Assembly (NCBI GenBank): GCA_028281365.1
Contig: JANQJZ010000046.1
Coordinates: 1-45,119, forward strand
Length of the DNA: 45,119 nucleotides
Source: Gammaproteobacteria bacterium
GTDB lineage: Bacteria; Pseudomonadota; Gammaproteobacteria; Eutrophobiales; Eutrophobiaceae
Reading direction: 5' to 3'
Below, piece by piece: positions 16,737 to 45,119 of the stretch. A program made the translations under genes and the position numbers. The notes beneath the pieces are model-generated. The model saw nothing but the letters and a program-made list of their open reading frames with translations, was not told the origin of the DNA and ran no database searches. How positions within the stretch are numbered: the first letter of the stretch is position 1; the number at the start of each line of letters is the position of its first letter.

Positions 16737-17753
16737 TTAATCTTCTTTATTTTCAGCTGCATCTTTAGCTTTTTTCGCGGTCTTTTTGCTCGCTTTTTTC
16801 GCAGTCTTCTTTTTGGTTACTTTTTTCTTGGCAACAGTCTTCTTCTTTGCGACCTTTTTCTTGGTTTTTTTAGTTACTGAGTCATCATCCTTTTGTTCTT
16901 CATCTATCGTGCTTTCTTCAGCACTTTCAATCTTCTTCGCCGCCTTCTTCTTTGTCGCTTTTTTGCTGACTTTTGTTTTTACTTCGACGCCATCCTTTAA
17001 TGCAATAGGCGTACCGCTGTCATCAATCTCAATAAGCTCATCACTGTCTTCACTGTCACCCAAATGTGCAATTGATTGACGGCTGTCCAGAATGGTATCA
17101 GCTACTCCCTTTGCATAAAGCGTAATAGAGCGAATAGCATCATCATTACCCGGAATAATATAATCGACTCCTTTAGGACTATTATTACTATCAACAATAC
17201 CAATAACGGGAATGCCAAGTTTTATTGCTTCACTGACAGCGATATTTTCATAACCGACATCAATAATAAATAAAGCATCAGGGATACTCTTCATATCTTT
17301 TATACCTGATAAGTTGGCTTCAAGCTTATCGAGTTCACGTTGATACATGAGCTGTTCTTTCTTGTTAACCCTGTCCAGGCTACCGTCCGCCTGCATAGTC
17401 TCGATTTCTTTTAAACGATTTATCGAACCGCGAACCGTTTTGAAATTGGTTAATAATCCGCCTAACCAACGTCGATTAACATATGGCATACCACAACGCG
17501 TTGCTTCTTCCGCAATAATTGATTGTGCAGCCCGTTTGGTACCAACAAATAAAATAGTGCCTTTTTTTGCTGCCATCTTACTGACGAAATTAATTGCTTC
17601 CTCATAGAGTGGCAGGGTTTTTTCCAGATTGATGATATGAATCTTGTTGCGCTGGCCGAATAAATAAGGTGCCATACTGGGGTTCCAGTAACGGGTTTGG
17701 TGACCAAAATGAACACCCGCCTCCAGCATTTCACGCATGGTGACATTAGACAT
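16737..17753 (-). CDS. rpsB: Ribosomal protein S2 with long Lys/Ala-rich C-terminal tail
   Basis: Protein of the small-subunit head-body junction. The protein has 338 residues, against 241 in E. coli. Residues 1 to about 230 are a normal S2 core, including [38 protein letters not shown] and PDALFIIDV. Residues about 231-338 are extra: an acidic linker ([15 protein letters not shown]), a first basic patch ([11 protein letters not shown]), a second acidic stretch near 277-291, then a long K-, A-, T- and V-rich part (residues 296-330) like eukaryotic H1 tails or AlgP. The frame is uninterrupted and the stop is 14 bp before tsf, so I see a genuine extension, not a frameshift. Ribosome site AGGAG before the ATG at 17753. 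Confidence 0.97.
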
Positions 17754-37831: not shown

Positions 37832-37867
37832 GGACTTTATAAGTAATTGATTAATTGGGAGATCGAG

Positions 37868-38383
37868 ATGTCAGCTGCAGTTAGTCAACACCAATCCACA
37901 AAACGCTCGGGTTTTACGGCGGTTAGCATTCCTAATAAACCGGATAATCCGGCCAGTTTCGATAACGACACTATCCAGGGTTTCATAAAACATCCGGAAC
38001 GCTTTCCACTCAATTTTAGGCGTTTGCGCTTTTGGGAACGTTCAAAAGCAAAGTTTGAACAGATTTCAAATGTAGGGCTAACCTTCTTTACACAAGAGTA
38101 TCAAAAACCAGGCAATATTCTGGAAATTACAATACCTACGCGTAAAGAGACACACCAGTTTTTAGGTAAAGTTGTGATGGTCAAGGAATCAGAAAATGGC
38201 TATGAGATAGGTGTGTGGCTATTAAATGTTGAAGATGGACCTAAATTAAGAATTATTGAACAAATTTGTCATATCGAACTCTATCTCAACGATAAACGCT
38301 ATGCAGATGGTCCTTTTTTAAGCAAAGAAAGATTAACTGAAGAGTGGGTTACCCGTTTTGCCAGTCGTTTCCCAGTAAGTTAA
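37868..38383 (+). CDS. PilZ-like domain protein, degenerate
   Basis: It has 171 residues from the ATG at 37868, chosen over an upstream TTG at 37847 because GGAG is 6 bases upstream of the ATG. A variable N-terminus (1-60) is followed by a beta-rich region (about 62-140) with the PilZ outline: ISNVGLTFF, then GNILEITIP, LGKVVMVKES and GYEIGVWLL. The canonical c-di-GMP motifs are imperfect. The D/NxSxxG position reads QISNVG, and the preceding arginine motif is not in standard form (RLRFWERSK). It may bind c-di-GMP weakly or act as a non-binding adaptor. It is followed 30 bp later by a small basic gene. Confidence 0.6.
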   Translation: MSAAVSQHQSTKRSGFTAVSIPNKPDNPASFDNDTIQGFIKHPERFPLNFRRLRFWERSKAKFEQISNVGLTFFTQEYQKPGNILEITIPTRKETHQFLGKVVMVKESENGYEIGVWLLNVEDGPKLRIIEQICHIELYLNDKRYADGPFLSKERLTEEWVTRFASRFPVS

Positions 38384-42476: not shown

Positions 42477-43115
42477 ATGGAAAACAATACTGAAGAAAAA
42501 GCTAAACCTCGTCTACTCGGCGAGTATTTATCATGTTCCCGTGGCTCAATACGGATAGCAATGCAAAAAAAGCGTGATTCAAAACTACGAGAAAAATCAC
42601 AAAAACGATTAGGTGAGGTGTTACTGGAACTGGAAATGATTGAACAGGAAGAACTTGAAAATGCATTACGCCGTCAACGGGCTGATCGCCTTGGACTTTG
42701 CTCTGTTTTTGAATCACTTACCCGAGCCGAACTTTCAGCCATAGGAAATCACTTCTCTGAGATTAGTATCCCTGCAGGTCAACAGTTTATATTTGAAGGT
42801 GAAAATGATCCGACACTATATATTTTAGTAGATGGAAAAATCGAGGTTTTTACAAAAGATGATAAGGGAAACGAAATCCACATTGCTTATGTACAACCTG
42901 TTGAGCCCATTGGTGAAATGGGATATTTTCAAGGAGGGATCCGAACAGCTTCCGTCAGAGCAGTTAACCCAACAGAATTATTATCGGCTGCATATAAAAA
43001 CCTGACACATTATTTTGAGCATGTCCCTCATGTTGCACACGCATTTCTAGACGTAATTAATCGACGACAGGCTGAAACTAATAAAAAACTCGGTAAAACG
43101 GATAGCCCTGAGTAA
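42477..43115 (+). CDS. Cyclic nucleotide-binding domain protein with MshEN-like N-terminal helices
   Basis: The protein has 212 residues. Residues about 45-68 (RLGEVLLELEMIEQEELENAL) look like the short MshEN/GspE N-terminal helical motif that binds c-di-GMP in some ATPases. Residues about 74-200 are a CAP-type cyclic nucleotide domain with FIFEGENDPTLYILVDGKIEVF and the phosphate-binding cassette IGEMGYFQGGIRTASVRA. The Glu and Arg needed for cNMP are present. There is no DNA-binding domain, so it is more likely an adaptor than a transcription factor. It is 53 bp upstream of the REC/GGDEF-like gene and probably in the same message. Confidence 0.85.
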   Translation: MENNTEEKAKPRLLGEYLSCSRGSIRIAMQKKRDSKLREKSQKRLGEVLLELEMIEQEELENALRRQRADRLGLCSVFESLTRAELSAIGNHFSEISIPAGQQFIFEGENDPTLYILVDGKIEVFTKDDKGNEIHIAYVQPVEPIGEMGYFQGGIRTASVRAVNPTELLSAAYKNLTHYFEHVPHVAHAFLDVINRRQAETNKKLGKTDSPE

Positions 43116-43168: not shown

Positions 43169-45119
43169 ATGTCTGATTCCAGTTTAGAAAAAGTATTAAT
43201 AATCGATGATAGTTCAGATTACAGAAAGTTAATCAAAACCTTCATCAATAAATTATTACCAAAGATTGAAGTTATTGAATATGACCCTGTCTTTGAAGGA
43301 GCACCAGGTGATGATTTTGACTGGGCAGAAATTGATGTTTTATTACTTGATTATCATTTATCTATCGTTGGCACAACAGGCCTGGATATATTACACAAAC
43401 ATCATAAAAAACCGGAATTTCCTGCCACTATTATGTTAACCGGTGCCGGTACCGAGGAAACGGCTATCCGTGCACTAAAATTCGGTATATACGAATACCT
43501 GCCTAAACAATCCTTAACCAAGGACAAATTAAAACAATCAATAATCCATGCCTGGGAAGAAAAACTCGCAGAGAGAAAAAAACTTCAGGAAATTAGCCAA
43601 CATAACAGATCGTTTAGTAAAGAAGTCTTTTATGAAAATCTGGAAAAAGCATTCTCTCAAAAAGACCATAAACGTGTGCTGGTTGTTATAAAGCCAGACA
43701 ATATAAACGTACTTGAACAAAAGATAGGTGTTATTGGCAGAGATAATCTGGTAAATCACATTGGGAAAAACAGCTTTGAGGTTTTTAAGATTGGTGCCTG
43801 TAACCCAAACATAACACGCATTAGTGATGATGAGATAGCAGTACAAATTGATTACCCTGTTAATCAGGAAACACTTGAATTTAATATGCAAGGTCTTTGC
43901 AAACACCTTGCAAAGTGTACATTCAAGTTTTCTGATGAAAAATTCAAATTCACCGTGAGCATAGGTGTACTTGATCTGAGTCTTTTTGACATAAAAGCTG
44001 AACGATTAATTAATATTGCTCAAATAGCATCCGAACGTGTCAGTAATGTACAGGATAATTCTTATTACATTTGGAAAGAATCAGATGGGATTCCTGAATT
44101 ACCTGTTGTAAGTCAAAAAAATCAAGACAAAACCGAAGAGGCTAAAGATACTGCTAATGAAGAAAAACTAAAACTGGAGGCTGAACTAAAAGCCGCTGCC
44201 GAAGCGAAAGAACAGGCAGAAGCAAAAATTAAAGCCGAACAGGAAGCAAAGGTAAAACTTGAAGCCGAACTTAAAGCCGCTGCCGAAGCGAAAGAACAGG
44301 CAGAAGCGAAAATCAAAGCCGAACAGGAAGCAAAATTAAAGGCAGAGAGTGAAGCACAAGCAAAAGCAGATGCTGAAATACAGGCTGCAAAAGAAACAAG
44401 GGAAAAGCTTGAAGCCGAACTTAAAGCCGCTGCTGAAGCAAAAGAACAAGCAGAAGCGAAAATCAAAGCCGATCAGGAAACAAAATTAAAGGCAGAGAGT
44501 GAAGCACAAGCAAAAGCAGATGCTGAAATACAGGCTGCAAAAGAAGCAAGAGAAAAGCTTGAAGCAGAGTTAAAGGCAATTGAACTAGCTAAAGCTGAAG
44601 CAGAAGCCAAAGCAAAAGCAGATGCTGAAATTCGCGCTGAACAGGAAGCGAAAATCAAGCTTGAAGCAGAGTTAAAGGCAGCTGAAGAGGCAAAAGCAAA
44701 GGTTGAAGCAGAAATTCGTGCGGAACAGGAAGCGAAACAACGGCTGGAAGCTGAACTTAAAGCGGAAGCGGAAGCCAGGGCCAAAATAGAAGCGGAAGCA
44801 GAATTAAAAGCCGCTAAAGAAGCTAAAGAACGACTTGAGGCTGAATTAAAAGCTGCCGCTGAAGCTAAAGCAGCTGCTGAAGCAGAGATCAAGGCTGCTA
44901 AAGAAGCTAAAGAGCGACTTGAGGCTGAATTAAAAGCTGCGAGTGATAAAAAGGAAAAAACAAAATCAGAACAGGTTCAGGAAGAAAATGTCGAAGAACA
45001 AACAGCTAAAACCGAAGTTACCAAGGAAAAGGCTAGTAAACCAGAAGCAGAACCTGAACCTGAACCTGAATCAGAATCAAACGTTGAACCTTCCGTAAAA
45101 AAAGAAGATGTTTCGGAAG
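43169..45119 (+). CDS. REC plus degenerate GGDEF-like protein with very long Ala/Glu/Lys helix (partial)
   Basis: Open to the window end: 650 codons from the ATG at 43169 with no stop. Residues about 7-130 form a receiver domain with the acidic pair D13/D14, phospho-acceptor D61 (LLLDYHL), T91 (MLTGAGT) and K113 (YLPKQ). Residues about 145-315 resemble a GGDEF fold (RVLVVIKPDNINVLEQ, then FTVSIGVLDLS), but the GGDEF loop reads ISDDE, so it is unlikely to make c-di-GMP. Residues about 331-590 are a nearly pure A, E and K helix with few breaks, built of 28- and 50-residue units. An acidic Pro/Glu tail begins near 625. A downstream EAL or other output domain may lie beyond the window. FimX is the nearest architecture that comes to mind, without certainty. 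Confidence 0.88.
   Translation, partial: MSDSSLEKVLIIDDSSDYRKLIKTFINKLLPKIEVIEYDPVFEGAPGDDFDWAEIDVLLLDYHLSIVGTTGLDILHKHHKKPEFPATIMLTGAGTEETAIRALKFGIYEYLPKQSLTKDKLKQSIIHAWEEKLAERKKLQEISQHNRSFSKEVFYENLEKAFSQKDHKRVLVVIKPDNINVLEQKIGVIGRDNLVNHIGKNSFEVFKIGACNPNITRISDDEIAVQIDYPVNQETLEFNMQGLCKHLAKCTFKFSDEKFKFTVSIGVLDLSLFDIKAERLINIAQIASERVSNVQDNSYYIWKESDGIPELPVVSQKNQDKTEEAKDTANEEKLKLEAELKAAAEAKEQAEAKIKAEQEAKVKLEAELKAAAEAKEQAEAKIKAEQEAKLKAESEAQAKADAEIQAAKETREKLEAELKAAAEAKEQAEAKIKADQETKLKAESEAQAKADAEIQAAKEAREKLEAELKAIELAKAEAEAKAKADAEIRAEQEAKIKLEAELKAAEEAKAKVEAEIRAEQEAKQRLEAELKAEAEARAKIEAEAELKAAKEAKERLEAELKAAAEAKAAAEAEIKAAKEAKERLEAELKAASDKKEKTKSEQVQEENVEEQTAKTEVTKEKASKPEAEPEPEPESESNVEPSVKKEDVSE
44174..44557 (+). 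repeat. Tandem repeats encoding the long helix
   Basis: Two 150-bp units (44258-44407 and 44408-44557) differ at 7 bases by my codon-by-codon comparison, giving 3 amino-acid changes. A shorter 84-bp unit (44174-44257) precedes them and shares its first 25 codons with the longer unit. Similar segments at 44813 and 44897 are also 84 bp apart. The pattern points to recent in-frame duplication. Confidence 0.9.

Follow-up and report, generated by a model that had tools for sequence, protein, structure and literature searches.

The Ala/Glu/Lys repeat close to the 3' end of the analysed DNA (the window, 45,119 bases, which is the entire contig G000:C32) probably encodes the spacer between the domains of a FimX-type protein that is soluble and enzymatically degenerate, with the order receiver (REC), GGDEF, spacer and EAL, in which spacing would be needed and its exact length and chemistry would be only loosely constrained. 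As far as the sequences can tell, this assignment draws on the domain order of uncut relatives, an intact phosphorylation site, degenerate GGDEF and EAL domains, helix-favouring charges, an in-frame duplication, and a drift between the copies that is mostly synonymous. The repeat is real and had been rightly described in the original prediction; it sits in a gene whose second half that reader could not see. An odd low-complexity repeat thus becomes a signalling-scaffold component that can be tested.

Domain organization of the FimX-like protein

The open reading frame that carries the repeat (Table 1) has no stop codon because the contig ends there, and the stretch after the helix, mostly charged, continues up to that end. 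The domain plan was therefore read from relatives. When 53 genomes of the same family were searched, 25 of them, the window's genome included, had the receiver-GGDEF part at E <= 1e-60. Frames were read in the window and in 28 fetched loci (two genomes twice: L040 lies on the contig of L064 and L043 on that of L063, and each pair was counted once), among which 18 genes were uncut. These 18 share the order receiver, degenerate GGDEF, variable linker and degenerate EAL, with two exceptions, namely L060, where the receiver starts in another frame, and L065, which is almost without a linker. In keeping with the spacer role that had been predicted, the repeat stretch would thus lie between two folded domains.

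The phosphorylation site of the receiver is intact, with Asp13, Asp14, Asp61, Thr91 and Lys113 invariant in all 24 aligned sequences, the window's among them. The following domain is more diverged. Pfam returned no GGDEF match for the window protein, nor for L042, whether whole or as its C-terminal part alone; our profile A2, however, matched the REC-GGDEF structures 6zxm (E 1.3e-13) and 6zxc at about 1e-13, as well as the GGDEF domain of FimX (3hva, E 1.2e-9). None of the 24 aligned sequences has an intact GGDEF motif. Pfam gave no PAS match either, an observation that is weak by itself since Pfam also misses the GGDEF domain here. Nevertheless, the GGDEF-like part begins at about residue 145, straight after the receiver, thus leaving no room for a PAS domain.

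The C-terminal domain of the relatives is an EAL domain that has lost its signature. Profile A1, built from an alignment that leaves out L056 (G032), truncated within the EAL region, and L045 (G072), which has several frameshifts, found its best solved relatives in the FimX proteins of Pseudomonas and Xanthomonas (E from 4e-25 to 1e-15, with 3hv9, 3hv8 and 4afy at about 4e-25). A structural model of the relatives' EAL part (pLDDT 85.9) gave FimX as the top fold match (4ag0, E 3e-13, TM 0.73), with the GGDEF-EAL protein PA0861 second. By Pfam, the C-terminal part of L042 alone scored 33.8 bits for EAL against a cut-off of 31.3, and EAL was not listed for whole L042. In the register taken from the FimX alignment, the Glu of the ExLxR motif is missing in 18 of 18 aligned EAL domains and the Arg is replaced in 17, which makes binding of c-di-GMP in the manner of FimX doubtful. 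Judged by sequence and predicted fold, FimX is the closest known relative, and the window protein looks like a phosphorylation-controlled scaffold built on its plan.

A reach "from the membrane" and a likeness to TolA had also been suggested for the helix, and neither held up. The window protein, L042, L046 and L047 were checked and showed no transmembrane-like segment (the top 19-residue Kyte-Doolittle mean, 1.35, lies inside the receiver), so that the FimX-like protein should be cytoplasmic. A membrane-anchored, TolA-like periplasmic rod has a similar composition in its favour, together with a weak match of the NCBIfam TolA model (TIGR02794) to the linker of L042, the one protein scored. That match, 16.4 bits, is far under the cut-off of 59.45, and, where TolA has a transmembrane helix at its N-terminus and a TolA domain at its C-terminus, the window protein begins with a receiver and its relatives end with an EAL domain. 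We therefore reject TolA membership and regard such a rod as extremely improbable; the domain plan of the uncut relatives makes the repeat an internal spacer of a soluble protein instead.

Table 1. Features in and around the FimX-like gene of the window
Feature	Position	Strand	Basis or remarks
Neighbour: cyclic-nucleotide-binding domain after half MshEN c-di-GMP-binding motif	42477..43115	+	PF00027 E 4e-15
FimX-like protein ORF	43169..45118	+	650 aa, no stop, reaches contig end at 45119
Receiver (REC) domain, aa 9-125	43193..43543	+	Pfam PF00072 E 7e-11
Degenerate GGDEF domain, about aa 149-303 (start about 145)	43613..44077	+	Signature S-D-D-E-I; profile A2
Ala/Glu/Lys linker, aa 328-592, 265 residues	44150..44944	+	Predicted from AlphaFold2 helices and charge pattern
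84-bp (28-codon) unit, copy 1	44165..44248	+	TRF and direct comparison
84-bp unit, copy 2	44249..44332	+	8 differences from copy 1, 7 synonymous
150-bp (50-codon) unit, copy 1	44258..44407	+	TRF and direct comparison
150-bp unit, copy 2	44408..44557	+	7 differences from copy 1, 4 synonymous
Third array, more diverged, period 42 bp, 3.3 copies	44801..44940	+	TRF
Linker tail, charged, Glu/Pro-containing, 58 aa	44945..45118	+	AlphaFold2 pLDDT about 40

The missing 3' half of the gene

The degenerate EAL domain expected 3' of the linker tail was not found in the assembly of the window's genome. The EAL domain of L042, used as a query, had no match there, and the sole match of the EAL profile was a different GGDEF-EAL protein, on contig C46; the same profile recovered the FimX-like EAL half in six other genomes. 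The gene that lies downstream in relatives likewise has no ortholog-level match in this genome (best 40% identity, compared with 64-66% in G029 and G035), and the last 320 bases of the window contig match no other contig of the genome. A missing contig is the simplest reading, fitting better than a truncated gene, though it is unproven. As the window's own EAL half was not found, we infer its presence from the relatives.

Some relatives carry disrupted copies. The FimX-like gene is interrupted in two genomes of one genus, G010 (L060) and G032 (L056): in G010, an assembly of 3 contigs, the first 64 residues of the protein lie in a separate frame with a stop, and in G032 the gene's frame stops within the EAL region. 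At L045 (7201-10301; G072, 8 contigs), several frameshifts affect both the neighbour gene and the FimX-like gene; these are probably uncorrected sequencing errors.

Tandem duplication within the linker

Both unit pairs described in the original prediction are present as such, the 150-bp pair exactly, with its seven differences, and the 84-bp pair with eight (Table 1). Tandem Repeats Finder (TRF) reported 2.1 copies of the 150-bp unit with 94% matches (score 571), and 2.0 copies of the 84-bp unit with 92% matches (score 290). When the codons were shuffled (300 shuffles), the best 150-bp pair always had at least 59 differences and the 84-bp pair at least 30. When, instead, synonymous codons were redrawn with the protein kept, the 150-bp pair had 27.4 differences on average and 18 at minimum, against the seven observed. 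It is thus below every redraw and is therefore a real DNA duplication, not merely a repeated peptide. For the 84-bp pair, the redraws averaged 15.0 differences and their minimum, 8, equals the observation, which makes a recent DNA duplication less certain; this pair may be older. Chance and codon bias are accordingly ruled out as the source of the 150-bp pair and are undecided for the 84-bp pair, so that the claim of recent tandem duplication stands for the former and is weakened for the latter.

Synonymous changes account for 11 of the 15 differences between copies, as opposed to about three expected (near 21% under uniform change; p = 2e-5, with the reservation that the units overlap and the sites are not fully independent). 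The peptide was kept while the DNA of the repeat drifted.

Helical form and charge pattern of the linker

The repeat had been described as a 260-residue Ala/Glu/Lys helix of about 39 nm. The span then given, 44158-44940, yields 262 residues (32% Ala, 25% Glu, 18% Lys) with no Pro or Gly. A long helix is supported as its likely form, whereas a fixed length as its function is weakened, as detailed below. If uninterrupted, a helix over the whole linker would be about 40 nm long.

Opposite charges stand at i/i+4 in 90 pairs in the window linker, compared with 29 expected (z = 14). They are depleted at spacings of 1 (z -3.0), 3 (z -5.5) and 5 (z -5.0), slightly so at 7 and 8 (about -2), and enriched at i/i+2 (z = 5.5), so that the charge pattern is not purely one of salt bridges. 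As shuffling destroys the repeat as well, independent replicates, namely the linkers of other genomes, matter here. The i/i+4 excess recurs in every one of the 10 genomes whose helical linkers were tested, the window's included (z 4.5 to 13.5); it is absent from the Pro-rich linkers (n = 11, z at most 0.9). The Glu/Arg-rich linker of L057 is intermediate, with z 3.9 at i/i+4 and 5.5 at i/i+3.

The AlphaFold2 model of the window protein, computed from an alignment of nine rows and with a pTM of 0.34, draws helices at residues 328-423 and 442-592, that is, over 247 of the 265 linker residues, with a pLDDT that is about 50-70 over the first linker half and 70-84 over most of the second. We doubt that the gap at 424-441 is a real hinge: it repeats residues 374-391, located 50 residues upstream, with two changes, and the latter are drawn as helix. 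Together, the linker statistics and the model fit a single alpha-helix; a weak coiled coil is possible.

In a rival reading, the linker would be a dimeric or trimeric coiled coil that self-associates the receiver/GGDEF halves. The 28-codon unit corresponds to four heptads, as the original prediction pointed out, spacings of 4, 10 and 14 dominate among Leu, Ile and Val in the window linker, and Ala-rich coiled-coil cores are possible. FimX itself is described as a homodimer, probably formed through its REC domains (PMC8389850). The 50-codon unit, however, is not a multiple of seven and would shift the heptad register, large hydrophobics make up only 13% of the window linker, and the 3.5-residue hydrophobic period is absent in the six linkers tested (p = 0.15 and 0.175 for the window, the former for large hydrophobics; p 0.30 to 0.84 for the five others). 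A weak 3.6-residue hydrophobic period appears in three of the six, including the window's (p 0.005 to 0.04). Thus, the periodicity does not support a heptad coiled coil as the default reading, and we keep it as an unlikely rival to the single helix.

Linker variation among relatives

Linker boundaries among the relatives were set by fixed offsets, estimated to be good to about 20 residues. On this measure, the linkers of the 18 uncut relatives range from about 0 (L065) and 23 (L053) up to about 440 residues (L042); the zero length of L056 is an artefact of its early stop. Three are Ala/Glu/Lys helical linkers (L042, L046, and L047 with about 358 residues), L057 alone is Glu/Arg-rich, 11 are Pro-rich with 11 to 28% Pro (L044, L048-L052, L054, L055, L058, L059 and L061), and three are short or of neither type (L053, L060 and L065). 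These differences are between species, as each species is represented by one genome in the collection.

With such a range of lengths and 11 Pro-rich linkers, a fixed reach of 39 nm is unlikely as the conserved function. The original prediction had itself named relatives with a short linker and the same function as evidence against it; relatives with short linkers do exist among proteins of the same architecture, and these may share the function. From these sequences, the linker looks like an adjustable spacer rather than a fixed ruler, and it is the distance or the freedom of the two halves that seems conserved, rather than any one length.

The same variation can be turned into an argument that the linker is a selectively neutral repeat expansion, a mere tether in which neither length nor helix has a function. 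Among relatives of this architecture, linkers do span about 0 to 440 residues and alternate between helical and Pro-rich forms, and the duplications in the window are recent. Yet the copies drift mostly synonymously, and the i/i+4 charge pattern is kept in every genome with a helical linker that was tested. Thus, the helix seems to be maintained, and we consider neutral expansion somewhat improbable. Under the preferred spacer reading, the linker series of the relatives (about 0, 23, and on to about 440 residues, helical or Pro-rich) is a natural experiment on receiver-EAL spacing.

Assembly breaks at the linker

Assemblies break inside the linker in eight of the 12 genomes with the helical linker type, as opposed to none of the 14 receiver-GGDEF genomes with other types (p = 3e-4; seven of 11 and p = 7e-4 without G068). 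In G003, G006, G035, G069 and G071, the two halves of the gene lie at the ends of two different contigs. These contig ends share an exact overlap of 34 to 62 bases in three of the genomes and none in G035 and G069. G000 (the window's genome) and G067 have the first half only and G068 the second half only, whereas G018, G029, G002 and G072 are unbroken in the linker, G072 with its frameshifts. As the EAL profile was run on 15 genomes, the remaining ones may include further cases that, like G068, have the second half alone. Because the gene often breaks at the linker, its receiver half will often be annotated without the EAL half.

Since the linker breaks assemblies, the unit number in these assemblies is uncertain. 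The window's repeat number could accordingly be an assembly product, a collapsed or mis-joined array; besides the excess of breaks, this would agree with the end of the window contig in the linker tail, 175 bp past the helix. On the other hand, the contig crosses the array into sequence found nowhere else in the genome, the copies differ and are thus separable by reads longer than a unit, and two uncut assemblies (L042 and L047) have helical linkers of about 440 and 358 residues. We therefore treat an artefactual unit number as possible, if on the unlikely side; the gene and the helix exist at any unit count.

Neighbour gene and genome setting

Upstream of the FimX-like gene lies a gene for a cyclic-nucleotide-binding protein (Table 1), whose N-terminal part matches positions 1-31 of the 53 in the MshEN model NF053729 (E 1e-6; 28.4 bits, below the cut-off of 38). 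The MshEN motif is described as a c-di-GMP-binding motif of 53 residues (PMC5013675). Of 26 loci, 21 have a neighbour of this kind beside the FimX-like gene (11 on its upstream and 10 on its downstream side); L056 is left out of this count. At L048 and L049, a small opposite-strand frame is called between the two genes. The neighbour is present but frameshifted at L045, the contig of L050 ends shortly after the FimX-like gene, and no neighbour gene was seen at the L055, L057 and L065 loci. Adjacency that is kept through rearrangement suggests that the two proteins work together. As a separate observation, the protein with half an MshEN motif and a cyclic-nucleotide-binding domain is a possible split or dimer-built nucleotide sensor.

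The window's genome encodes a PilB that scores over its cut-off, six PilZ domains (one at 38048-38257 of the window) and 10 GGDEF domains, which makes a pilus or c-di-GMP setting plausible by homology. Annotation around the FimX-like gene covered the adjacent neighbour and the PilZ gene. The PilZ-domain protein at 37847-38383, about 5 kb from the FimX-like gene, matches PF07238 exactly at the cut-off (22.5 bits), and the gene order is conserved in several close relatives.

Comparison with known systems and a proposed mechanism

Several similarities and differences were found between the window protein and FimX, the degenerate REC-PAS-GGDEF-EAL regulator of type IV pili in Pseudomonas aeruginosa and Xanthomonas. 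Like FimX, the protein is predicted to be soluble and has the receiver first and a degenerate GGDEF domain followed, in the relatives, by a degenerate EAL domain; FimX gives the best sequence and fold matches of the relatives' EAL part, closely followed by PA0861 and other GGDEF-EAL proteins. FimX is a polar protein that interacts with PilB and PilZ and is needed to assemble type IV pili; on this side, the observation here is that the genome encodes the type IV pilus protein PilB and PilZ-domain proteins. The differences are fourfold. First, FimX has a PAS domain between the receiver and the GGDEF domain, and none was found in the window protein. Second, the phosphorylation site is intact in all 24 receivers here, whereas the FimX receiver is without one (PMC8389850). 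Third, ExLxR is lost in all 18 EAL domains here, whereas the EAL domain of FimX retains EVL and Arg479 (PMC3527489). Fourth, the long and variable linker between GGDEF and EAL is unlike FimX.

The linker itself resembles the single alpha-helix (SAH) domains known from myosins, for example, with which it shares the network of opposite charges at i/i+4, the tolerance of Ala, the scarcity of hydrophobics and the position as a spacer between folded domains. Such domains are said to act as semi-flexible linkers in proteins of both prokaryotes and eukaryotes (PMC5378345). The present linker, whose helix is a prediction, differs in having grown by long tandem units and in lying inside a bacterial REC-GGDEF-EAL protein. 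A second parallel is domain II of TolA and TonB, where, depending on the lineage, the same interdomain position is reported to be taken by an alpha-helical or a Pro-rich segment (PMC12204202). The same alternation is seen in the linkers of the FimX-like relatives; TolA and TonB, however, are periplasmic and membrane-anchored, whereas the window protein has no transmembrane-like segment and its end domains are unrelated. A third is provided by the periscope proteins, bacterial surface rods that are built of repeats and vary in length; in these, the number of units sets the projection of a domain, and they have been recognised with long-read data (PMC8201768). Their tandem units are highly similar, as here. 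They are, however, surface proteins with folded repeat domains, whereas the present protein is soluble, its repeat is probably helical, and the variation is seen between species. Among the literature matches listed, for which most subscription journals were outside the scope, no such helix or repeat was reported in FimX, GGDEF or EAL proteins. We regard the window protein as a variant of the FimX scaffold whose probably helical spacer grew by tandem duplication.

Taking the interdomain spacer as the preferred reading, we propose that the Ala/Glu/Lys stretch would form a monomeric or weakly associating single alpha-helix, and that this helix would keep the receiver/GGDEF half and the EAL half at a distance. 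Where or when the EAL half docks on a partner, plausibly the type IV pilus machinery, might then be controlled by receiver phosphorylation in concert with the cyclic-nucleotide/half-MshEN protein encoded by the adjacent gene.

A bolder version, which we put forward tentatively and hold to be rather doubtful in full, is a cytoplasmic spacer system of adjustable length. Here, a receiver-controlled, enzymatically dead GGDEF-EAL scaffold, which may itself have ceased to sense c-di-GMP, would have its two halves separated by tens of nm. Each lineage would rebuild the linker in one of two forms, a charged single helix grown by tandem duplication or a rod rich in Pro, as a cytoplasmic counterpart of the swap in domain II of TolA and TonB. 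The linker length would be under selection and would change by unit duplication.

Elsewhere in the window, a 33-bp repeat occurs at 16802-16864 on the minus strand, within a Lys/Ala-rich C-terminal extension of a protein that we take to be ribosomal protein S2; the adjoining gene presumably encodes elongation factor Ts.
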